The notes below the pieces were generated by a model. That model was not told the DNA's origin and did no database searches. It was given only the letters and a program-made list of their open reading frames with translations. The translations under genes were made by a program, and so were the position numbers. This document shows, in pieces, positions 2,083 through 16,822 of a stretch of DNA of 64,000 nt (position 1 is its first letter; every line of letters begins with the position of its first letter). Source of the stretch: Mycosarcoma maydis (lineage: Eukaryota; Basidiomycota; Ustilaginomycetes; Ustilaginales); the NCBI RefSeq assembly GCF_000328475.2, contig NC_026478.1:186001-250000 (forward strand), in the 5' to 3' direction.

Positions 2083-3678
2083 ATGAGTGATCCCGGCACT
2101 TCTGCACCGTCGATCGGCAACGATCCGATCTACGACGACAGGCTCTGGTCGTTTTCGGCGTTTTTCCCACCGCCGTACCGCGTGCTTTTGCTCGCGTCGC
2201 TCGGCCTGTTGCTCTTCGCCATGAACGTCTTGGTGCTTGAATCCAAAGGAATCGATCTGTTTGCGCTCTTCAGAGCGGATGCCGCCGAAAAGAGACGTCC
2301 AATACCTTCAAGCTCGAACGGATTCCATCGTAGCACCACAGGCGCAAGCACTCAGTATGGGTCGTATCACAACGTCGCTTCCTCAAGCACCGCTTTGTCG
2401 TCCAGCGAGAACCGAGACGCGGCTATCTTGCCGATGCCAAATAGGTCGTCGGAAGCATCGGCATCAGCAGCAGTACTGACAGCAAGGCCGCTGTTGGCGT
2501 TTGGCGCGTTGCAGCTCTTCTGGTCGTTGCTTGGCTGGGCATCGTATCGGTTTTACGTCGACAGTCTTATCGGCGATCCAAAGGGTCGACACGCACAAGC
2601 GTTGCAAGCGATCACAGTGACGGGCGCGTTTGCAGCGCTTCTGTGGCCGGGCAACCTTTTCTTCAAACCGATGCGCAAAGCCTTTGGTCGATCAATATGC
2701 ATCATCTTCTCGCCTTCTTTGACGCAACCGATCACGTTTAGCGATGTGATACTCGCTGATATCCTCACTTCGTTTGCCAAAGTGCTCGGAGACGTCTGGC
2801 TGACAGCGTGCTTCCTGGTGCCGCGCAAAGAGCACCATACCTGGTGGAATGGCAAAGGATCCATCGCAGTACCTGTGCTCATCTCGCTACCTTACGCGAT
2901 TCGATTCCGACAGTGTCTCTCGGAGTACGTAGTGTCTCGTACGATCGACAATGCAAGCAAGAACAAGCGTGCGCTGTGGAATGCAGCCAAGTATGCATCC
3001 GCTCTTCCTGTGATTTGGCTGAGCGCATGGTACGAAGCCGACAAAAACCCACGAGGTCACCAAGGAGAATGGGTGACACGCTACATGCTCTGGTTCTTGG
3101 CGGTATGTGTGAATTCGATCTTCAGCTTTTGGTGGGACGTTACCAACGATTGGGGATTATCTCTGTTGCAACCTTCTAACATGCGCTCGATGGCTCAAGT
3201 AGTCCAGCATGCAGCGCACATTCATCGAAGACGAACGAGCTATATGCCGCTACCTCTGGGTGAGCAGGCCGAGACTCTGCCCATGTCGAATTTCCGCGCC
3301 GACGAGAAGCCCGATTTGACGTCGAATCTGCATGCATCCTCGCTTGCCGTTCCACCGATCAACACCTCCAGTGGACCCGCGTCAAGTCATGGTCGAACAC
3401 TCTCGGCGATGGAACGTCTGCTCCGGCCGTCTCCATCCCTGCTCTTTCCAGGCTGGATGTATCAGTGTGCGATCCTGCTCGATCTGCTGCTCAGGTTCTT
3501 TTGGTCTTTGAAGCTGTCTTCGCACTTGCACCATCTGGTAGAGTGGCAGGGTGGCATGTTCAGTATGGAGTTGCTCGAAATTCTGCGTAGGTGGATCTGG
3601 GTGTTTTTCAGGGTGGAATGGGAGGTTGTTCGACGCAGGGAGAGCGCAAGGTCCAGAGCGCACGTGGCGATGGATTGA
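2083..3678 (+). CDS. EXS-domain membrane protein, ERD1-like
   Basis: This is a polytopic membrane protein of 531 residues. The EXS domain is shared by yeast Erd1 (Golgi; recycling of glycosyltransferases and retention of ER lumenal proteins) and by the XPR1/SYG1 phosphate exporters. Here there is no N-terminal SPX domain, so the Erd1 type fits better. The N-terminus has a hydrophobic segment (residues about 23-44), then a Ser-rich linker, then several membrane segments. The C-terminal stretch ending LLEILRRWIWVFFRVEWEVVRR is the typical EXS end. I chose the ATG at 2083 because the 46 codons upstream in the same frame do not look coding. It is longer than yeast Erd1 (about 360 residues) because of the linkers. 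Confidence 0.75.
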   Translation: MSDPGTSAPSIGNDPIYDDRLWSFSAFFPPPYRVLLLASLGLLLFAMNVLVLESKGIDLFALFRADAAEKRRPIPSSSNGFHRSTTGASTQYGSYHNVASSSTALSSSENRDAAILPMPNRSSEASASAAVLTARPLLAFGALQLFWSLLGWASYRFYVDSLIGDPKGRHAQALQAITVTGAFAALLWPGNLFFKPMRKAFGRSICIIFSPSLTQPITFSDVILADILTSFAKVLGDVWLTACFLVPRKEHHTWWNGKGSIAVPVLISLPYAIRFRQCLSEYVVSRTIDNASKNKRALWNAAKYASALPVIWLSAWYEADKNPRGHQGEWVTRYMLWFLAVCVNSIFSFWWDVTNDWGLSLLQPSNMRSMAQVVQHAAHIHRRRTSYMPLPLGEQAETLPMSNFRADEKPDLTSNLHASSLAVPPINTSSGPASSHGRTLSAMERLLRPSPSLLFPGWMYQCAILLDLLLRFFWSLKLSSHLHHLVEWQGGMFSMELLEILRRWIWVFFRVEWEVVRRRESARSRAHVAMD

Positions 3679-3821: not shown

Positions 3822-4430
3822 TTACTCTTGCTTGTCGAGAAAGCCAAGACCCTGAGCGCGAAGTTTGCGTTCCAACTGTTCCAACCACTTTTGGAGGAGT
3901 GGTACCGTCTGTGGAGCTGAATCGGGGGCGAATGAGCTAAGGTAAGCGAAAGCGTTGTGTGCGATCTTGGGGGCGATACTTAGTGCTGTAGCCTCGAGGG
4001 CGGAGCAAGTTGATGTTGGTTGTGTGAGAGCGAATGTGGTAGCTCGAGTGGGGTGAAGCGTAGCCAGTTGTTCGTCGACGAGCGCGTCGGGCTCGATGCT
4101 GATCCCCAATGTCGCTGTAGCGTCTGTAGTGGCAAGCGAGGCGGGACGTGTCACTTTGAATATCGCGCTCGGTTTCGTGTTGCGCACCGCCCCGAGCAGC
4201 TTCCACGCGCCCGCGGTTGAAGTAGGATTCGTCTCACTTGTCGGCGCGGCACAAGGCCACAGCAGGTGCACAGTAGCAGAGTATCCGGCGGGAAAAGCTT
4301 GGACCCCAGTCATGAACACCACCACGTGCGAGATTGTCGAGACGTTATCGAGTGCGAACACGCAATGCGTTTCGTCCACCTGCTGCGCGTTTGTCAACGG
4401 TAGACGACCTGGAAGCACTACCGAAAACAT
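3822..4430 (-). CDS. Hikeshi/Opi10 family protein
   Basis: This is a 202-residue protein of the Hikeshi family (yeast Opi10). In animals Hikeshi carries Hsp70 into the nucleus during heat stress; in yeast, loss of Opi10 gives inositol overproduction. The start MFSVVLPGR and the following QQVDET and DNVSTISHVVVFMTG segments are the family hallmark, and the length matches the usual 190-210 residues. It is a single exon. It is convergent with the EXS gene (143 bp between stops) and divergent from NOP16 (537 bp between starts). The C-terminal end, PLLQKWLEQLERKLRA, is helical, as in the family. Confidence 0.9.
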   Translation of the reverse strand: MFSVVLPGRLPLTNAQQVDETHCVFALDNVSTISHVVVFMTGVQAFPAGYSATVHLLWPCAAPTSETNPTSTAGAWKLLGAVRNTKPSAIFKVTRPASLATTDATATLGISIEPDALVDEQLATLHPTRATTFALTQPTSTCSALEATALSIAPKIAHNAFAYLSSFAPDSAPQTVPLLQKWLEQLERKLRAQGLGFLDKQE

Positions 4431-4967: not shown

Positions 4968-5648
4968 ATGGCGAATCCACGACAGCGTCGCAAGGCGCGT
5001 TCCGGTAGCACGCTGAAACCGTCGCTGAACGCGAAAAAGCAGATGAAGAAAAAGCTTGCACGAGCCCCCACCATCCACGGGGCTGACGTTCTGAAAGACA
5101 ACTACGATCCCAAGCTCACACTGCGTCAGAACTACGCTCGATTGGGACTGGTGCCTTCGTTAGACGTTCGGCCTAATACGGGCGGAACTGAACGCGCACC
5201 ATCGAGTATCTCTGCATCGTCGAGCAAGGAGGGTCAAGCAGCGGTACGGAAGGGGATGGCGAGGGTGATTCGAGATGATGCTGGTAATATTGTGGATATC
5301 ATCGAGGCTGACGAGCACGATCAAGATGAAACCGCCTGGGGTAAACCGTTACCAAGCAGCATCGCCGATCGATCCGATGTACCGACTTTCATGCCCGTCT
5401 CGCAACCTGCATCGAATCCCGATGCGCTGCAGCAGCTAGAACAAATCGCGAGCCAAGCAGCGCCAGTAGAACGTCACACCAGCCAGAAGGAATCGCAATG
5501 GCTCGTGGAATTGGTGAAAAAGCACGACGACGATACCCAAGCCATGGCCAAAGATCGCCACTTGAACCTATGGCAGAAAACCGAGGGCGAGATCAAGAGG
5601 GCCATCAGAAAAGCCGGTGGTTTCCAGGCATTGCGTACTTCCGCCTAA
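4968..5648 (+). CDS. NOP16: ribosome biogenesis protein Nop16
   Basis: This nucleolar protein of 226 residues is needed for assembly of the 60S ribosomal subunit. The N-terminus is MANPRQRRKARSG followed by a Lys-rich stretch (KKQMKKKLARAP, residues about 24-35). Then comes the conserved block with WD-equivalent residues DNYDPKLTLRQNYARLGL, the best family signature. The C-terminus ends in a helical, basic segment (LNLWQKTEGEIKRAIRKAGG). Length agrees with fungal Nop16 (about 200-240). It is a single exon, convergent with the molybdenum-cofactor unit (169 bp between stops). Confidence 0.92.
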   Translation: MANPRQRRKARSGSTLKPSLNAKKQMKKKLARAPTIHGADVLKDNYDPKLTLRQNYARLGLVPSLDVRPNTGGTERAPSSISASSSKEGQAAVRKGMARVIRDDAGNIVDIIEADEHDQDETAWGKPLPSSIADRSDVPTFMPVSQPASNPDALQQLEQIASQAAPVERHTSQKESQWLVELVKKHDDDTQAMAKDRHLNLWQKTEGEIKRAIRKAGGFQALRTSA

Positions 5649-5817: not shown

Positions 5818-7227
5818 TCAAACGCTACGCTCCCAATCGCCGCTCTTACCACCACGTTTGCTGATCACCATGATCTCACCGATCCTCATTGTCTTGCCCG
5901 CAACCGCCTTTACCATATCCCACACGGTCAAGCAGGCCAGCGTGCAACCCGTGAGTGCTTCCATCTCGACCCCAGTCTGACCCTCGGTCCTTGCCGTACA
6001 CTCAACCGTGATCCAGCTGATCTCGTCTGCCTGCTCGGTGGAAGCGTTGATATCGAGCTTTACCTCGACGTGCGTAAGCGGCAATGGGTGGCACAATGGG
6101 ATCAACTCGGCGGTACGCTTTGCTGCCATGATGCCTGCTAGTTGTGCAGTGTGTAGCACAGGGCCTTTTCCAGAGATGCCTTGTTGCGTCTCGGTGGCGC
6201 GCAGCAAAATGGCGGCAGAGTGAGGCATGTAGACTCGACCTACAGCCGTAGCCGAACGCGACGTGGAGAGCTTGGCAGATACGTCCACCATCGAGGCCGA
6301 TCCGGTGGCCGGGTCGATGTGCGACAATCGGTGAGAGTTTTGTTCGTCCGCAGCGGGTCGAGTGGGCACAGGTGCGTCGTTGAACAGCTGAGTTACTGCG
6401 GCTGCACCTGCTCGAGCGAACTCGGCTTCTTCTAGAGATCCGGTCTGATATGTTTGCAGTTCGAGCTGTTGGCGCAGCAAATCGTCGTTGGCAGCGAATG
6501 CTTCTTTCGAATTGATCTTCAGTTGCTGCGAGCTGGAATGCTCGTGATACTGCTGCCGCGGGACTTGATCTTGCTGGTTGTAGTGCTGTGCGCTTAGCTG
6601 CATGACATCCTGCTGATGTTGCAGCGGCAAAGGCACTGCAAATTGCGCCGACGAGTCGGGATTGTCCACAAACGCATCCAGTGATGACCAAGGCGAGTCA
6701 TCGTCCTCGCTACTGTTTTGCATGTATTCGGACCACTTGGCACTTGTTCTTGGAGCTGCTTGCAAACCAAAGGCATCATCGCTTCCACCGTAATTTGCTG
6801 GCAATCCGACGCGCGATGGCACCGAAGGTGGTGCATCTGAAAATCTTACACCTGACACTGCACCCATGTCTGCAATGTGTGATCGTCGAGACATGGTTTT
6901 GACAGCCGCAGCACCTGCTTGAGCAAAGATGGCCTCTTCCATCTCAGAGATTGGATGCTTGGCTGCGCTTGACTTGGCCTGTGACGGTTCCGGAAGTTCT
7001 GCAGTGGCATCGACAGACGGATGCTTGTGGTAGACTTGCTTGTATAGAGATTTATCTGCGAGGTTCTCGAAGGCCTTGTCAAGATCGCCCCAAGGGTTGT
7101 CGTCGTCCTCATTATTTCGATCGTACTGATGCTCTCGTTGCCTGCCTGCTGAGGAGTGGAACGCCCTTTTGATGGCCAAAACTCTGCTGTGAAAGCCTGT
7201 CGCTTCAGGCAGGCTGCTGCGTCTCAT
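5818..7227 (-). CDS. MOCS1B: MoaC-type cyclic pyranopterin monophosphate synthase (MOCS1B)
   Basis: This enzyme carries out the second half of the first step of molybdenum-cofactor synthesis, making cyclic pyranopterin monophosphate in mitochondria. Starting at the ATG at 7227 it has 469 residues. The C-terminal 170 residues are a full MoaC domain: [18 protein letters not shown], then [15 protein letters not shown], then [16 protein letters not shown]. The N-terminus [11 protein letters not shown]...KRAFHSSAG looks like a mitochondrial presequence with the R-x-F-x-S-S-A cleavage type. About 300 residues separate the two and hold an internal duplication (see findings). The frame stays open upstream to 7437, with no ATG, overlapping the end of MOCS1A. 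A frame-preserving intron candidate lies at 7266-7370. Whether it is made alone from a bicistronic mRNA or as a spliced fusion with MOCS1A cannot be settled here. Confidence 0.85.
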
Positions 7228-7265
7228 GAACACGCCAGGTCTCGTACTGCTCGGCTTGTTTGATC

Positions 7266-7370
7266 CTGAATTTTCGAAGGGTAGAAAGAGGAGCGAGGAG
7301 GTGAGCAAGGCCTGCGCTTCAAGCTGTACTGAATGCAGATCGCGGCGTGAAAGAGTCCGACTCTGCTTAC
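7266..7370 (-). other. candidate intron between MOCS1A stop and MOCS1B start
   Basis: On the minus strand a strong donor GTAAGC (first base 7370) lies 12 bases after the MOCS1A stop. A pyrimidine-rich tract ending in AATTCAG (last base 7266) follows, with a GCTCAC branch-like site before it. The length of 105 bp matches the three MOCS1A introns (80, 104, 102 bp). Removing it keeps the MOCS1B frame and would leave only 50 bases between the MOCS1A stop and the MOCS1B ATG. Confidence 0.5.
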
Positions 7371-7382
7371 GTGGACCCACGT

Positions 7383-9003
7383 TTAGCCGCCAATGGTGAT
7401 CATGGGCCTGTTGAGCGACTTGGCCAACTCGGTGGGATCACGCATCCCAGCATGTTTAGCATGCTTGCGACCCACGGCAGCTCCAATCAGTTGCAACAGC
7501 TGATCGTCCGTCGCGGGTGCGCCATTTGAGCCTGTGCTGAGAGAAGCGATGGGGCCAAAGCCGGTTCGCATCGCATCACGAAGGCTAACTTCGGCGTTGC
7601 CAAAGAGGCAGACCTGCGGAAAAGCAAGAATAGTGGTGACAGATAGAGACGATCAGAGATCAGCGTTGTGCCTGAAATATCAACGTGGGACCGATCGAAG
7701 AGGATCAACACTTACCTTGAGATTGCCGTCCGCAGTAACGCGGAGTCTGTTGCACGTACCACAAAAATTATCCGTCATACTAATGGGCAGAAGCGTCATG
7801 GTCAAAACATTGGTTGAATAGTCAGCGGGTCGAACGAAGAAGAAGAAGAAACGATGCCGCAAGAATCGGAACGAGAGACATACCTGGTGATGAAGCCGAC
7901 GGTGCCTTGATGACCGGGCACATGCCAGTGTTTGGAGGTATCGTTGGGATCGTCGCGGCTTGTGACACGCTCGAAATCAGGGAACTCTGTTTGGATTGTC
8001 CTGACGAGATCACGGTAGGGCACGAGCTTTTGGACCTGCCACTTGTTTCCGTCAAAGGGCATGTACTGCAAGGGAACCGCCATCAAAGAGTCGATGTAAG
8101 TACGGGCTACAAACGGTGAATGCAAAAGGGCGGCAAAGAACATACCTCGATGAAGCGGATGGTGATAGGCTTGTCTTTGGTATAGCGCACAAAGTCAGCG
8201 ACATCCTTTGTGTCGTTGAGACCTTTGATGACGACCACATTGATTTTGACGCTGGAGACACCTAGTGCGAGGGCCCTCTCGATGCAATCCATGACAGCTT
8301 GGTGGCCTCTTCTTCTCGTCATGAACTCGAATTTGAACGGGTCGAGAGTGTCCAACGAGACATTGAGATGAGTGAGACCGTTGTTAACGAGTGTATCGAG
8401 CTTGCGCCTGCCAAGTGCGATGCCGTTGGTGGTGATGCCGATCTGCTCAAGCCCGTGCTGCTTGAGTGTATTGAGTGAGGTGACGATCTGGGGCAGATCT
8501 GAGCGAATGGTGGGCTCTCCACCTGTCAATCGAATCTTGTTGACACCTTGCGAGACGAAGAGCGTCGCAAGGCGTTGGACCTCGGACGTGGAAAGAAGAT
8601 TTGCATGTGGCGTGAGAGGTACGCCATCTTCGGGCATGCAGTAGAGGCATCGTAAGTTGCACTTTTCCGTCAACGAGATGCGAAGGTAGGTGTGCTGTCG
8701 AGAATGACGGTCGCGGAGAAAGTGAGAGGGGGATGGTGGTTCGAGCTGCGCGTCGATGTCCGAGATTCTTTGACGAGCTCGTTGGTGCGACGCCAGATTG
8801 GAGGTTAAAGCGGCGCTCTCTGCCATGTACGGCTGAAGTGTGCCCGGCGATACCTCTGTTGGCGCTGTCAATGGTTTGGCGGACAAAGTTGAGCGCGACA
8901 AGAGCCGCAGCTGTCTGGGTAATCGTATGCTTGATGGAGTTGTTCTGCTAGCAGAGCGGGCTGCTCTTGTGATCAGCCGGCTTGGCCCAGCTATCGGCAT
9001 CAT
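7383..9003 (-). CDS. MOCS1A: GTP 3',8-cyclase, MoaA type (MOCS1A), four exons
   Basis: This radical-SAM enzyme converts GTP to 3',8-cH2GTP, the first step of molybdenum-cofactor synthesis. Exons on the minus strand are 9003-8146, 8065-7884, 7779-7716 and 7613-7383. Introns are 80, 104 and 102 bp with GT...AG ends, giving 444 residues. The joins restore [30 protein letters not shown] and [12 protein letters not shown]. The N-terminal Fe-S motif is CNLRCLYC, the C-terminal cluster uses CGTC plus the later Cys, and TGGEP binds SAM. The start [20 protein letters not shown] is a likely mitochondrial presequence. The protein ends IGG followed by TAA; a free C-terminal Gly-Gly is required for activity in the human protein. 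Upstream in-frame codons to 9210 include repeat DNA and are unlikely to be coding. Confidence 0.9.
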
Positions 9004-9127: not shown

Positions 9128-9162
9128 GATTTGTGATCTGTGATTCGTGATTTACGATTTGA
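9128..9162. repeat. heptamer array, GATTYGT-like x5
   Basis: Five consecutive 7-bp units: GATTTGT, GATCTGT, GATTCGT, GATTTAC, GATTTGA. This is a degenerate member of the window-wide heptamer family, lying just upstream of MOCS1A. Confidence 0.7.
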
Positions 9163-9254
9163 ATCGAATCGATTTTTGCTTAGAATCATAATCCAAGTCG
9201 GTTCAAACAACCTAACATTTCACAAATTTGTTCGGGGTCGTGCGATGTGCGGTT

Positions 9255-9289
9255 ATTCACGATTCACGATTCACGATTCACGATTCACG
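9255..9289. repeat. heptamer array, ATTCACG x5 (perfect)
   Basis: Five perfect tandem copies of ATTCACG, the best example of the CGTGAAT-type subfamily on the opposite strand, in the MOCS1A/permease intergenic region. Confidence 0.9.
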
Positions 9290-10307
9290 ATTTTCAGCGT
9301 TTCCTGTTTTGGTTTTTACTTGGGCCCTGTTTCGGCCAAGTCCGAGTGGTGAGTGGGGTGGAGTGTGAGTGTGAGGGTGGAAGTGGCACAGCTGAAACAA
9401 TCATCAATTTGTTGCGAGCATGCACGGATCTTATCTATCAAACCAACTGCAAGTTTGATGCGTACACAAGCACAGCTTCTGATTGGTCTCGCACTCGCCT
9501 GTTTAGCCGCAATCTCGGGCGAACTGCACAACGGCTTCCTCATGATTGGCCGCTTCTGGAAAGGTAATCGTGATTCTTGCACTCGTGACTAGTCAACAGC
9601 TCTATCTATACTCACAAGCAACAAGTCACAGTTACAACGGCACTCGTGACTCACCTCTTAAACTTGATGATGCTTTCAACGCCACCCCGCGTGTTGTCTC
9701 GTCCCTGCAAGAATCGCGAATCGTGAATCGTGAAATCGGTTGATAAGTTGATTTACCAGCAAAGGCATGCAAGCGAGTTTACATGCATTCACGATTCGTA
9801 ATTCGACATTTGGTCCACATGCTTTCCCCACGCAGACAATCACGATTCGTGAATAGCAGGTTTGAGCAGGTTTGACGAGTTGACTGATAAGTGGCGTCGG
9901 CTTGTGCGGCTAACCATACCGGCCGTCGGGGCGAGTTTGAAACTGTACGACTCTGTGACTCACAAACACGTATCTTGGTCGACAGCTGACTCTGTCCGCG
10001 CTGACAAAGTGCAGCTACACCCGATTCAGGTCGTGTTCCTCGGTTCCTAATCTAGTAGGAGAGGAGTGAACCTGCCACAAACTTGCCACCTTTCTTATCT
10101 TGTTCGCTCCTATATCATCGCGCCCCATCGAGCTGCCAGTTGACATATCCCGCCCCTACTTGATCTGCCGACGCGGTTGCAAGCTTACGTGCAACCCAAC
10201 AACGTCAGTACGTTTGGCACTTTAATTGCCGACTTCAAGCCTTCAGAGATCCACCCTTTCCCTCCTGGTCATCTGACCACCAACCCATCCCTCATCTCGT
10301 TGCCCGC

Positions 10308-12140
10308 ATGACTTCGACAGACGACGACAAAGTCTACGGCACCATGTCTTCCAAGCAAGCCACCGTTACTACCCAACCCTTCGCTCACCCTGAGCCGCAA
10401 CATATTAGCACTTCGCATGAGCTCAGCAACGACGGCGCTACTCCTACCACCTCATGGACGCGCAGCCCAGGCCTCCACGCTCGCCACGTAGCTCGCAAGC
10501 TTACGACACGCCATGCATGGCTTGGCGACTATCAGTTTGGCGCTCTCTGCCTGCCGCGCCTCTTGCCTTGGAAGCCCGACTCGAAGCTCAACGGTGGTGC
10601 GGCTGAATCTCCTTTCTACGGCGTCCATGACGAGCTTCCGATCGCAGTAGCAGCGATCTGCGGCCTTCAACATGCGCTTGCCATGCTCGGAGGCCTCATC
10701 ACCCCTCCAATGATTATCGCGTCCTCGCTCAGCTTGTCTGCCGAAACGTCGGCCTACCTCATCTCTGCCAGTCTCATCACCTCAGGATTGATTTCTGCCG
10801 TTCAGCAATCTGCTATTCCTCTTCCTTTCATGGGTGGACGACAGCTCGGTACTGGCTTGCTTAGCGTAGTCGGCACGAGCTTTACCACGCTCTCCGTCAC
10901 AAGTAGTGTCTTCACCAACCTATACGCTGAGGGCGTATGTCCTCTTAACCCAGATGGCAGTCGAGCCGCTTGTCCGGATGCGTACGGCTACCTGCTTGGA
11001 ACCGCAGCAGTGTGTGCTTTGCTCGAGATTGCACTTTCCTTCCTCCCCGTCAAGGTGCTCAAACGAATGTGGCCTCCGCTGATCACGGGAACCCTTGTCT
11101 TCTTCGTCGGCATTAAATTGATTGGTGAATCCGCCATCCCCTCGTTTGGTGGTGGCTCCTCATGCCACGGAACCACCAAACTCTGCTCCGGCACTGATCA
11201 CCGAGCTTACCTCTGGGGTGATGCGCACTACCTCGGTCTCGGTCTCCTCGCTTTCTTGACGGTCGTGGTCACAGAAATTTTTGGCAGTCCTGCGATGCGT
11301 AACGCTTCAATAGCCATCGGACTTTTGTTCCCGCTCGTGGTAGCAGGCCCACTAGGATACATGTCTTCGGCACCCATCGAATCGGCACGTCCCATCACGT
11401 TTCTCTGGGTGGAAACGTTTCAACTTCGAGTCTATGGTCCCGCCGTTTTACCGCTCCTGGCGGTCTACATCTCGCTCATGATGGAATGCATTGGTGATGT
11501 CACGGCAACGTCAGAAGTGAGTCGCGTCGAGGTGGATGGAGTTGCCTACGATCGACGTATCAGCGGTGGTGTACTGGTCGACGGTCTTGCTGGCATCTTC
11601 AGTGCGCTGTTCACCGTGCCACCTCTCTCGGTTTTTGCGCAGAACAACGGTGTCATCGCTATCACCAAATGCGCCAATATTCAAGCTGGTCGATGGTGCA
11701 GTTTCTGGCTCATCCTGTTTGGCATCATCGGTAAACTAGCTGGTTGCGTACGAGCCATCCCACAACCCGTCCTCGGCGGCGTGCTGCTGATTCTCTTTGG
11801 CTCGATCGCTGTATCAGGCATCAAGATTTTGCAATGTGTCACCTTTACGCGAAGGAACCGTTTCATCCTGGCGCTCAGCTTTGGATTTGGCTTCGGTACC
11901 TTGTTGGTACACGACCTATTTAGCAATCTCTTCACTTACAAGGGTGGTAACAAGGCGCTCTCGGGTTTCTTGGACAGCATCATCATTGTCATTTCGACGC
12001 CATTCTTGATCAGTGCCGTCGTGGGCATGATTGCCAACGGGATCCTGCCGATGGACGAGGAGGACAGGCAGCTGCAGCGTGCACGAGAATCGCCGCAGCT
12101 GGCACCCAATTCCGCCTCTGACGAGAAGCTTCCTGCCTGA
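10308..12140 (+). CDS. nucleobase-ascorbate (NCS2/NAT) transporter, xanthine/urate permease type
   Basis: This is a plasma-membrane proton symporter of 610 residues, most like fungal UapA/UapC xanthine and uric acid permeases. The N-terminal cytosolic part runs to about residue 100. Then GLQHALAMLGGLITPP opens the first membrane segment with the family QH pair, followed by about a dozen hydrophobic segments. The NAT signature QNNGVIAITKCANIQAG begins at residue 445 (Q445-N-N-G448). TM10-region residues PLLAVYISLMMECIGDVTATSE carry the conserved acidic E and D. It is a single exon. It lies divergent from the molybdenum-cofactor genes, whose product is needed by xanthine dehydrogenase. Substrate preference is inferred from the family only. 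Confidence 0.9.
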   Translation: MTSTDDDKVYGTMSSKQATVTTQPFAHPEPQHISTSHELSNDGATPTTSWTRSPGLHARHVARKLTTRHAWLGDYQFGALCLPRLLPWKPDSKLNGGAAESPFYGVHDELPIAVAAICGLQHALAMLGGLITPPMIIASSLSLSAETSAYLISASLITSGLISAVQQSAIPLPFMGGRQLGTGLLSVVGTSFTTLSVTSSVFTNLYAEGVCPLNPDGSRAACPDAYGYLLGTAAVCALLEIALSFLPVKVLKRMWPPLITGTLVFFVGIKLIGESAIPSFGGGSSCHGTTKLCSGTDHRAYLWGDAHYLGLGLLAFLTVVVTEIFGSPAMRNASIAIGLLFPLVVAGPLGYMSSAPIESARPITFLWVETFQLRVYGPAVLPLLAVYISLMMECIGDVTATSEVSRVEVDGVAYDRRISGGVLVDGLAGIFSALFTVPPLSVFAQNNGVIAITKCANIQAGRWCSFWLILFGIIGKLAGCVRAIPQPVLGGVLLILFGSIAVSGIKILQCVTFTRRNRFILALSFGFGFGTLLVHDLFSNLFTYKGGNKALSGFLDSIIIVISTPFLISAVVGMIANGILPMDEEDRQLQRARESPQLAPNSASDEKLPA

Positions 12141-14647: not shown

Positions 14648-16822
14648 CTACAAATCCCTTTCGAGCTCGCTCAGCATGTTATACAACTCGCCATCTCGAA
14701 TACTAGCATAGATGACCGAGACGTAACCGCCCGTCGTGTTCCATTGCTCAAATTCGCCCTTGAATTCGTTGAGGTTCTCCTTACCATGCATGGGCACACC
14801 CAGCGTCTTCCTGACAAACTCGTAGGCGCGCTTGGTCTTGCCCAACAGGTGGCTGGCATGGCAAGCGTATGGGTTGTCAAGAAATTCGATCGTTACCTGC
14901 CTGTAAATCTTTTCCGTGTCAGCTACACCGGTGGCGCGCCACTTGACAATGTTCCTCAGCGGATCCGCACCACCACCGCTAGGCAGCTCGGAAAAGTACC
15001 TCACAAGCACAGACGACGCGTCTTGGTACGTCTCGACCAGTCGATCGCGAAGGTCCTTGGACGAGGTTTCGTCGAGACGCTTGCTCATGCTCTTGAGCAC
15101 CTGTGCTGCAATCTCTTGCTGCTTGGTCTCATCCATCCACTCGCCAAAGTGACTGTGCAGCGATGCCAAGATGAGCGTGGGCAGCTGCTCAGCAACCTTA
15201 TACTGCAAAGCGCGAATATCGAGTGCTTGGCACAAGAGGTAGAGCGACCAAGCCTGAATCATCGAGAGGCACTCGATCGCCTGCAGCGTCTGGCGGCCGC
15301 TGATGAGCGCCAGCGAGTTGATGGCCTGGTTGGCCATCTCTGCACTTTGTACATGCGTTGAAACGGGGTTGCCGAGGAACATGAGTTCCGAAGTGACACT
15401 GGCAAGCGCAATATCGATTCCCTTGGCGTGGAAGTTGAGCGACAGATCAGGCGTGGAAGCCAAGTTGGCGGGCAATCCTCGGTTCATTGCCGGGTTGACG
15501 AGCTCTGTCATCTGCTGGAACGTCATTTTGCCCATAGCACACAAGGCGAGGCGGATCTTCTCGACGGCATTCGTCATGGCCATGGCCTGGAAGTTGCCTC
15601 CGTGGTGGATGCGACCGTCGCCGTCGTACGGGTCGATCATGGGGTTATCTGTGGTGCTGTTAATCTCAATGTCGACGGATCGCTTTGCGTTTTCGATGTC
15701 CTCGAGACCCGGGCCGACCCACTGGGAGGCGGTTCGCAGCGTGTAACGGTCCTGACGCAGCGTTCCGTTGTCTTCGGAGAAGAGGACGTGCTTTTCGTTT
15801 TCGAGATGCTCTGCTAGCCTAGAGCCGGAAAGAAGCGCGCGGATAAACTTGGCGCTCTTGATCTGACCAGGATGCGGGCGGGCGATTTCGTGAATGAAAG
15901 GAGCAAAGCTGGCATCGGTACCCTTGAGGGCTTCGACGGCCATAGCGGTGGTGAGCTGCGTCAGAGAGGCTAGATTTTCGGCCTCGTAGGTAGCGAGACC
16001 CGCAACAGAGGCTGAAAAAGCGGTGCCGTTGAGCAGACCAAGCGCCTCCTTGGGCTCATACTGGACGGGGGTGATCTTGTGCATGCGACAAGCCTCATCC
16101 GCAGTCACCTTGACACGCTGACCACGGCCGTCGGTGACAAAGCAGTAGATGCCACGCTGACCGGCAAGCGCACCGGCTACGTAGCTAAGTGGGCTAAGAT
16201 CACCACTGGCCGAGATACTCGACCTGACTGGTACGACTGGAGTGACGTTGTTCTGGAGGAAAAGCTTCTGCATCTTGTCGAGCACCTCCCAACGCACACC
16301 CGAATGACCGCGCATCAGAGAGCTGAGCCTAACCACGATGGCACCCCTTACCCATGCCTCCGGCATGATCAGTGAAGACTCTGTGTCCGTCAAAGGGAGT
16401 GCAAAGGGTGCCGAGCTGGGTTCGCCCGTGGGGAATGTGGATGGCACGGGGAGCACGCCACACTGCTGCATCTGGAGCAAGGCCAGCTGAAGCGCACGTG
16501 TGTTGGCGGTCCTCGAGTCGGCGGACCCACCGAACCCCGTGTTGATGCCGTAGATTGACTCGCCACGGTCGAGCTTGGCGATTAAGGACTGGACCGAGTC
16601 ATCAATACGCTTTCGCGTCTCAGCGGAGGGGTCGAGGACGGGAACGTGACCGTATCGAGCGGAAGCGACGAGACCCTGGATCTTGAGATTGTAGCCGTCG
16701 ATAACGACCTGCTCGGTTCGGAAGGACGATGCTTTGCGAAGTTTGGTATCCGAAGGCTGGACGAGCAAGCCTGGACGCGTGGATGCCTCGACGGGAGGGA
16801 GCACGTCTGCGGTTGGAGCCAT
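14648..16822 (-). CDS. PAL1: phenylalanine ammonia-lyase
   Basis: This enzyme deaminates L-phenylalanine to trans-cinnamate and ammonium in the cytosol. It has 724 residues and one exon, the usual length for basidiomycete PAL. The Ala-Ser-Gly triad that forms the MIO cofactor is at residues 205-207 in SISASGDLSPLS. The catalytic loop Tyr is in YGINTGFGGS (Y91). HGGNFQA, the NxxQ/ENQFS-equivalent region (STPDLSLNFHAKG) and TTDNPM follow in order. At the substrate-selectivity pair before CGVLP the sequence is QMQQCG. Yeast-type PAL/TAL has a His-Gln pair there, so the first position is Met (about residue 118). It is convergent with the TMEM135-like gene, and its promoter is the 0.9 kb upstream. 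Confidence 0.95.
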   Translation of the reverse strand: MAPTADVLPPVEASTRPGLLVQPSDTKLRKASSFRTEQVVIDGYNLKIQGLVASARYGHVPVLDPSAETRKRIDDSVQSLIAKLDRGESIYGINTGFGGSADSRTANTRALQLALLQMQQCGVLPVPSTFPTGEPSSAPFALPLTDTESSLIMPEAWVRGAIVVRLSSLMRGHSGVRWEVLDKMQKLFLQNNVTPVVPVRSSISASGDLSPLSYVAGALAGQRGIYCFVTDGRGQRVKVTADEACRMHKITPVQYEPKEALGLLNGTAFSASVAGLATYEAENLASLTQLTTAMAVEALKGTDASFAPFIHEIARPHPGQIKSAKFIRALLSGSRLAEHLENEKHVLFSEDNGTLRQDRYTLRTASQWVGPGLEDIENAKRSVDIEINSTTDNPMIDPYDGDGRIHHGGNFQAMAMTNAVEKIRLALCAMGKMTFQQMTELVNPAMNRGLPANLASTPDLSLNFHAKGIDIALASVTSELMFLGNPVSTHVQSAEMANQAINSLALISGRQTLQAIECLSMIQAWSLYLLCQALDIRALQYKVAEQLPTLILASLHSHFGEWMDETKQQEIAAQVLKSMSKRLDETSSKDLRDRLVETYQDASSVLVRYFSELPSGGGADPLRNIVKWRATGVADTEKIYRQVTIEFLDNPYACHASHLLGKTKRAYEFVRKTLGVPMHGKENLNEFKGEFEQWNTTGGYVSVIYASIRDGELYNMLSELERDL

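Follow-up and report, generated by a model that had tools for sequence, protein, structure and literature searches.

The window, a 64,000-nucleotide stretch of the Mycosarcoma maydis (U. maydis) genome, contains a two-ORF MOCS1 locus of the nit-7/cnxABC kind, in which MOCS1A lies upstream and MOCS1B is adjacent to it on the same strand. Judged by sequence, the locus encodes the two enzymes that convert GTP to cPMP. This kind of locus is already known; its variant features here are the placing of a splice donor and an AUG before MOCS1B. Because a donor inside the Gly-Gly codons of MOCS1A is absent, the way in which fungi usually arrive at an AB fusion seems to have been lost. The likeliest reading, to which we give even chances, is that MOCS1B starts at its own AUG (position 7227) on an RNA that crosses the gap between the two frames and has lost a 105-nt intron.

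In humans and Neurospora, MOCS1B has so far been explained by an AB fusion that is later cut. Whether that fusion is needed can be tested naturally in a lineage that has no Gly-Gly donor. If MOCS1B is translated from its own AUG, the locus would offer a native bicistronic mRNA in a conserved pathway and in a genetically easy fungus.

MOCS1A and MOCS1B are adjacent single-copy genes

The features of the locus are as follows.

8146..9003, minus strand: MOCS1A exon 1, with the ATG at 9003, an N-terminal presequence, and the radical SAM motif CxxxCxxC
7884..8065, minus strand: MOCS1A exon 2, with GT-AG introns on both flanks
7716..7779, minus strand: MOCS1A exon 3, followed by the donor 7715 (AAG/GTAAGT), the best scoring in the scanned stretch
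7383..7613, minus strand: MOCS1A exon 4, with the third Cys of C-x2-C-x13-C, the C terminus ITIGG, and TAA at 7385-7383
7228..7382, minus strand: intercistronic gap of 155 nt, with neither ATG nor AATAAA
7266..7370, minus strand: candidate intron of 105 nt, wholly 3' of the MOCS1A stop, with a GTAAGC donor and a TTCAG acceptor
5818..7227, minus strand: MOCS1B, 469 aa, single exon, with MoaC at residues 313-460 and an N-terminal extension of ~310 aa
7150..7227, minus strand: basic N terminus of MOCS1B with the motif RAFHSS (residues 21-26), presequence-like or processing-like
6291-7110, minus strand: long extension before MoaC in the smut MOCS1B (residues ~40-310)

Splicing the four MOCS1A exons (9003-7383) in silico gave an open frame of 444 aa that ends Ile-Gly-Gly-TAA, so that the protein carries a free C-terminal Gly-Gly (ITIGG-TAA). 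The introns measure 80, 104, and 102 nt, start with GTATGT, GTATGT, and GTAAGT, respectively, and all end in AG. MOCS1A matches Radical_SAM (106.5 bits) and Mob_synth_C (115.1 bits) above the Pfam cut-off and carries the cluster motifs CxxxCxxC at residue 115 and C-x2-C-x13-C at residue 353, the last Cys of which is encoded by the first part of exon 4. The MoaC domain of MOCS1B is full length (156.8 bits; positions 1-136 of 136 of the Pfam profile). Given these domain scores, chance is no concern for the reality of the two genes. The frames and Pfam domains bear out the original prediction of a MOCS1 locus with a four-exon, Gly-Gly-stop MOCS1A followed by MOCS1B, and its coordinates, phases, and measurements (gap of 155, intron of 105, spacer of 50, B frame open from 7437) all hold.

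A search of the whole 19.66-Mb genome found no second Mob_synth_C or MoaC gene; MOCS1A and MOCS1B are single-copy genes. Oxidored_molyb genes are present at two places in the same genome. The cofactor is therefore presumably needed, and MOCS1B must come from the ORF at 7227-5818.

The genes flanking the locus, assigned by Pfam, are listed below.

2083-3678, plus strand: EXS family
3825-4430, minus strand: Hikeshi-like
4968-5648, plus strand: Nop16
10308-12140, plus strand: purine permease (Xan_ur_permease, 192 bits), divergent from MOCS1A
14651-16822, minus strand: aromatic amino acid lyase

By its sequence, the permease is likely a xanthine/urate transporter, and a gene for the cofactor of xanthine dehydrogenase would then adjoin a gene for such a transporter. 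Between MOCS1A and the permease, at 9136-9860, there are repeated ATTCACG/CGTGAAT-like units in both orientations.

The border between the two frames lacks a Gly-Gly donor

MOCS1A ends in the codons GGC GGC TAA, followed by AC. No GT lies within this sequence, and a Neurospora-type donor overlapping the Gly-Gly-stop codons is absent. Good donors are found near the stop at 7380 (GTGGGT, score of 6.0) and 7370 (GTAAGC, score of 6.4), where all scores are on a rough 8-point scale that we made from a general fungal consensus and that is not trained on this species. They begin 2 and 12 nt past the stop, respectively, and since both start after it, neither yields an A-B fusion. A GC-AG intron at G/GCGGCT was considered by eye and dropped.

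The sequence from the MOCS1A stop to the donor GTAAGC is ACGTGGGTCCAC, and removal of the candidate intron that begins there would shrink the A-B spacer to 50 nt. This candidate has a CTCAC branch-like site 36 nt from its end, compared with 31 to 46 nt for the best-placed sites of the MOCS1A introns. Its pyrimidine content over 40 nt is 0.78, compared with 0.62, 0.62, and 0.75 in the three MOCS1A introns. In length, branch distance, and pyrimidine content, the sequence resembles those introns. If the candidate intron is real, then some RNA crosses the A-B border.

The absence of ATG from the gap is shared by 0.13 of shuffles, and a CT-rich stretch was seen inside the gap by eye. Both features would suit a separate MOCS1B gene with its own promoter and an mRNA start in the gap after 7370; the MOCS1B AUG would then come first, and the intron-like sequence would not be an intron. 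Mushroom genes in polycistronic units are reported to be transcribed singly as well (PMC4503453). Such a gene is nevertheless improbable here, as the intron-like sequence would have to be a coincidence and the gap is only 155 nt.

The original prediction that MOCS1B has its own in-frame AUG 155 bases downstream of MOCS1A was confirmed: the first ATG of the frame is at 7227, with T at -3. The frame stays open upstream as far as 7437, with no ATG in that part. This openness is weakly beyond chance, since 0.08 of composition shuffles are open over the 70 codons, and across the gap alone the frame stays open in 0.155 of such shuffles. Stop codon readthrough into MOCS1B was rejected, because the spliced A frame past TAA meets a TGA that overlaps the MOCS1B ATG and is not in the frame of MOCS1B. 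Readthrough in U. maydis is reportedly the subject of a published study.

In-frame routes from MOCS1A to MOCS1B do exist. GTGATC at 7441, GTGATG at 7579, and the acceptor at 7265 are all in phase 1, and the donors in phase with this acceptor were confirmed to be only weak (best score, 2.4 of 8). Before the stop, exon 4 has donor-like sites that score 6.1 (at its first base), 4.9 (7589), and 4.0 (7475), with the rest lower. In phase 0, donor 7589 or 7475 can be paired with acceptor 7323 or 7311, and exon 4 can be skipped in frame from donor 7715 (score of 8.0) to either of these acceptors. The phases of the exon 4 donors first proposed for a fusion check out, but that proposal missed exon 4 skipping.

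Through one of these junctions (7715, 7589, or 7475 to 7323 or 7311; 7441 or 7579 to 7265), a minority A-B transcript could be made by alternative splicing, and its product could be imported via the MOCS1A presequence and cut at RAFHSS like NIT-7AB. Fusion as such is the tested route in Neurospora (PMC7232280) and the described route in humans (PMC9607355), and exon skipping accounted for 12 of 193 events reported in U. maydis (PMC2219887). The in-frame pairs with donor 7715 and the B frame open from 7437 would permit it. The sequence around the border is less favorable: the Gly-Gly codons lack GT, no donor in phase with the best-looking acceptor, 7265, exceeds 2.4 of 8, and, if the site at the first base of the exon is set aside, the other exon 4 donors score no higher than 4.9. 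Acceptors 7323 and 7311 have no long pyrimidine tract by eye. MOCS1B also has an in-frame AUG at which several smut models start. On balance, we regard a conventional fusion as possible but rather doubtful.

MOCS1 gene models in other fungi

Three protein searches, with 120 matches listed in each out of thousands, gave 304 proteins. When sorted by simple motifs, the listed proteins comprised 147 AB, 83 A-only ending in GG, 16 other A, 56 B-only, and 2 unplaced, with some AB falling among the 16 other A. The number of AB proteins among the matches listed (147/304) is in line with a fusion. In two of the searches, a single one of the matches listed was 100% identical: P0125, an unspliced piece, in one and P0001, a B-frame ORF, in the other. 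The name of the public U. maydis gene model was absent among the 120 matches listed per search, in which names are shortened.

Among the listed proteins, 99 run on past NRPM[IV]x[IL], and the next residue is Gly in 86 and D/V/E/A in 13. All 99 fit a codon starting with G, although the 86 Gly are expected anyway; the 99 include two proteins other than AB fusions (P0133 and P0214) and a few from animals. Judging from gene models, many of which come from predictors, the donor that joins A to B in fungal fusions appears to lie within the Gly-Gly-stop codons.

The annotated smut AB models differ. NRPM..I is kept in 2 of 9, both from U. trichophora, versus 94 of 140 non-smut AB models (Fisher p = 0.010, a guide only, since the models are related). 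The other seven smut models depart from MOCS1A before NRPM..I is reached, at six different points, and look like forced models. The Gly-Gly donor may have been lost beyond this genome as well, the DNA compared being that of the window. No published description of the two-ORF arrangement of smuts was found in the open-licence literature.

The U. trichophora models retain GG and read ITIGG-PAKRS straight on into B, which points to fusion in a relative and weighs against a start at the AUG. One of the AB models from this species (P0010) has Val in place of the Met at which B starts in others and lacks any Met ahead of the RAFHSS motif. If P0010 is right, U. trichophora has no AUG from which a B with the motif could start. 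In Pseudozyma flocculosa, A (P0124) and B (P0029) are separate models on contigs of equal size, as might be expected of separate genes, though the B model begins after the motif.

Two further models, a spliced MOCS1A with a GG end (P0123) and a MOCS1B (P0006), each come from a contig of 8976 bases, perhaps one and the same RNA-derived contig. If they do share it, this would be a case of co-transcription without fusion in a smut. A smut-type MOCS1B filed under Cichorium endivia (P0022) is probably fungal contamination of a plant assembly.

The N terminus of MOCS1B

The first 33 residues of MOCS1A have a net charge of +7 and no acidic residues and are amphipathic, with a hydrophobic moment of 0.71 (p = 0.01), compared with 0.55 (p = 0.02) for an Hsp60. 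The first 33 residues of MOCS1B have a net charge of +5 and are not amphipathic (hydrophobic moment, 0.35; shuffle p = 0.70). Amphipathicity is a weak test, since two mitochondrial-looking ALDH N termini fail it too.

Smut B proteins have R-x-F-H-S-S or close variants near the N terminus. M[KR]R or MQRR precedes this motif in 10 of 17 aligned smut B rows, an alignment in which B-only models start with Met by construction. A similar motif is common in the linkers of fusions: of the 104 non-smut AB linkers that were scanned, 69 contain R-x-[FYWLHIC]-[SHTYA]-[ST], whereas 1000 shuffles gave a mean of 12.3 and a maximum of 23. With smuts included, it was found in 74 of 112 linkers; the 38 linkers without it include three of eight smut models (P0015, P0016, and P0025). 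The scan used 112 of 238 radical-SAM-motif proteins; the other 126 were left out because they were A-only, the anchor could not be located, or the linker was not long enough, and P0011 was outside the 238. A Met upstream of the motif was considered as a smut hallmark and rejected, as the numbers (4/5 smut versus 30/69 other linkers) are too small to tell.

By general motif rules, we take the linker motif to be a mitochondrial processing site. A control with the longest ORF at each of 33 loci in the same genome found RSFST in the Hsp60-like L017, while the eight other chaperonin-family ORFs (L009-L016) had no motif within their first 80 residues. RVFTT turned up in an Hsp70 fragment (L022 and L024, one gene), where it does not mark a presequence, and an ALDH (L036) has RCLST. 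This control is small and mixed, and the longest ORF looks wrong-frame for at least L007 and L030.

Since the motif is common in AB linkers, it cannot tell independent import of MOCS1B from release out of a fusion, and its presence inside many linkers also fits a conventional fusion. The original prediction took the presequence of MOCS1B as a sign of independent import. The basic character of the N terminus and RAFHSS agree with this, but with a similar motif in 69 of the 104 non-smut AB linkers RAFHSS does not prove it, and the N terminus is not amphipathic. Nor is a presequence-like element before MOCS1B without precedent: an internal targeting motif before human MOCS1B and the cleavage of MOCS1AB are known (PMC9607355). 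One candidate for the site at which NIT-7B is cut free is this motif, present before B in the linkers of many fungi; the Neurospora paper, in the text available, does not place that site (PMC7232280).

The long extension that follows has no Pfam match, and a 181-aa piece of it matches only itself in the same genome (E values up to 10). It contains two pairs of similar motifs, one at residues 42 and 176 and the other at residues 101 (FAQAGAAAV) and 270 (FARAGAAAV). Similar stretches also occur in related Ustilaginomycotina proteins.

How MOCS1B may be made

In the reading that we put at even chances, the four-exon ORF would give MOCS1A with its free Gly-Gly end, and MOCS1B would be made chiefly from a bicistronic mRNA, an option that the original prediction had raised and that is still a live one, whose second ORF is read by reinitiation. 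Alternatively, the RNA for MOCS1B could be shorter and start within MOCS1A exon 4. RAFHSS would be the mitochondrial processing site of the MOCS1B precursor. Splicing of the candidate intron, co-transcription, AUG use, import, and processing are presumed steps in this model, which builds on the observed gene anatomy, family identity, lack of GT in the Gly-Gly codons, and intron-like sequence.

Several lines of evidence favor a start at the AUG. Both genes are single copy, and the two Oxidored_molyb genes would need the cofactor. GGC GGC TAA contains no GT, while good donors (7370 and 7380) lie past the stop, and the gap is short (155 nt, where intergenic distances average 973 bp according to PMC2219887) and free of a competing ATG. 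The candidate intron is like those of MOCS1A, 10 of 17 smut B rows share the M[KR]R/MQRR start before R-x-F-H-S-S, and seven of nine smut fusions look like forced models. Reinitiation would also be feasible, given that in yeasts and filamentous fungi it can be supported by a 9-bp sequence (PMC10352335) and that a human patient allele of MOCS1 gives trace MOCS1B in this way (PMC9607355).

Other evidence argues against such a start. Ribosomes usually reinitiate poorly once they have translated an ORF of 444 codons, the MOCS1B AUG has T at -3, and the N terminus is not amphipathic. A fusion, too, could make use of the B frame that is open ahead of the ATG, and Neurospora, the closest studied system, requires the fusion. 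Polycistronic transcripts are reported to be widespread in mushrooms and were not found in Neurospora; smuts go unmentioned in the available text of that report (PMC4503453).

More speculatively, smuts may largely have dropped the MOCS1AB fusion: the donor would have slid past the stop, the linker element would have gained an AUG, and MOCS1B would be read from a bicistronic mRNA by reinitiation and imported alone, with U. trichophora retaining the older state. We hold this history only tentatively.

Comparison with known systems

Plant CNX2 and CNX3, which we take to be mitochondrial proteins, are like the smut pair in that A and B are made as separate proteins, as would be the case here. The plant proteins are encoded at two separate loci (PMC7232280), whereas the smut ORFs are just 155 nt apart. 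Aspergillus nidulans cnxABC, likened here by description, is also one fungal locus for both activities, and bicistronic expression of it was discussed earlier in print (PMC7232280, citing another paper).

Human MOCS1 likewise has two ORFs at one locus, for MOCS1A and MOCS1AB. A bicistronic transcript gives MOCS1A, and MOCS1B is cleaved from MOCS1AB, which arises when exon 9 is alternatively spliced and has a targeting motif upstream of MOCS1B; in a patient allele, trace MOCS1B arises via reinitiation (PMC9607355). Two published accounts differ on whether the human cleavage comes before or after import (PMC9607355 and PMC7232280). Unlike in human MOCS1, the Gly-Gly codons of the smut locus hold no donor for a fusion, and an AUG precedes the N terminus of MOCS1B.

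The human and Aspergillus systems had been compared with this locus at the outset, but Neurospora crassa nit-7, where an intron itself encodes the Gly-Gly-stop (PMC7232280), had been left out. As in the smut, nit-7 is one locus with A first, ending in Gly-Gly-stop, then B, and an intron at the border (a candidate in the smut). The nit-7 intron (1460-1696) encodes Gly-Gly and the stop of NIT-7A, and when it is spliced out NIT-7AB results, a protein that sheds its A part once it has been imported; both products are needed in mitochondria (PMC7232280). From the published coordinates, we infer that the nit-7 donor is the G/GT of the first Gly codon. Whereas intron 1 of nit-7 holds the Gly-Gly-stop, the smut candidate intron lies wholly past the stop, and the Gly codons lack GT. 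NIT-7B made alone from its own Met neither enters mitochondria nor complements (PMC7232280); the smut MOCS1B, in contrast, has an AUG before a basic, motif-bearing N terminus that is a putative presequence.
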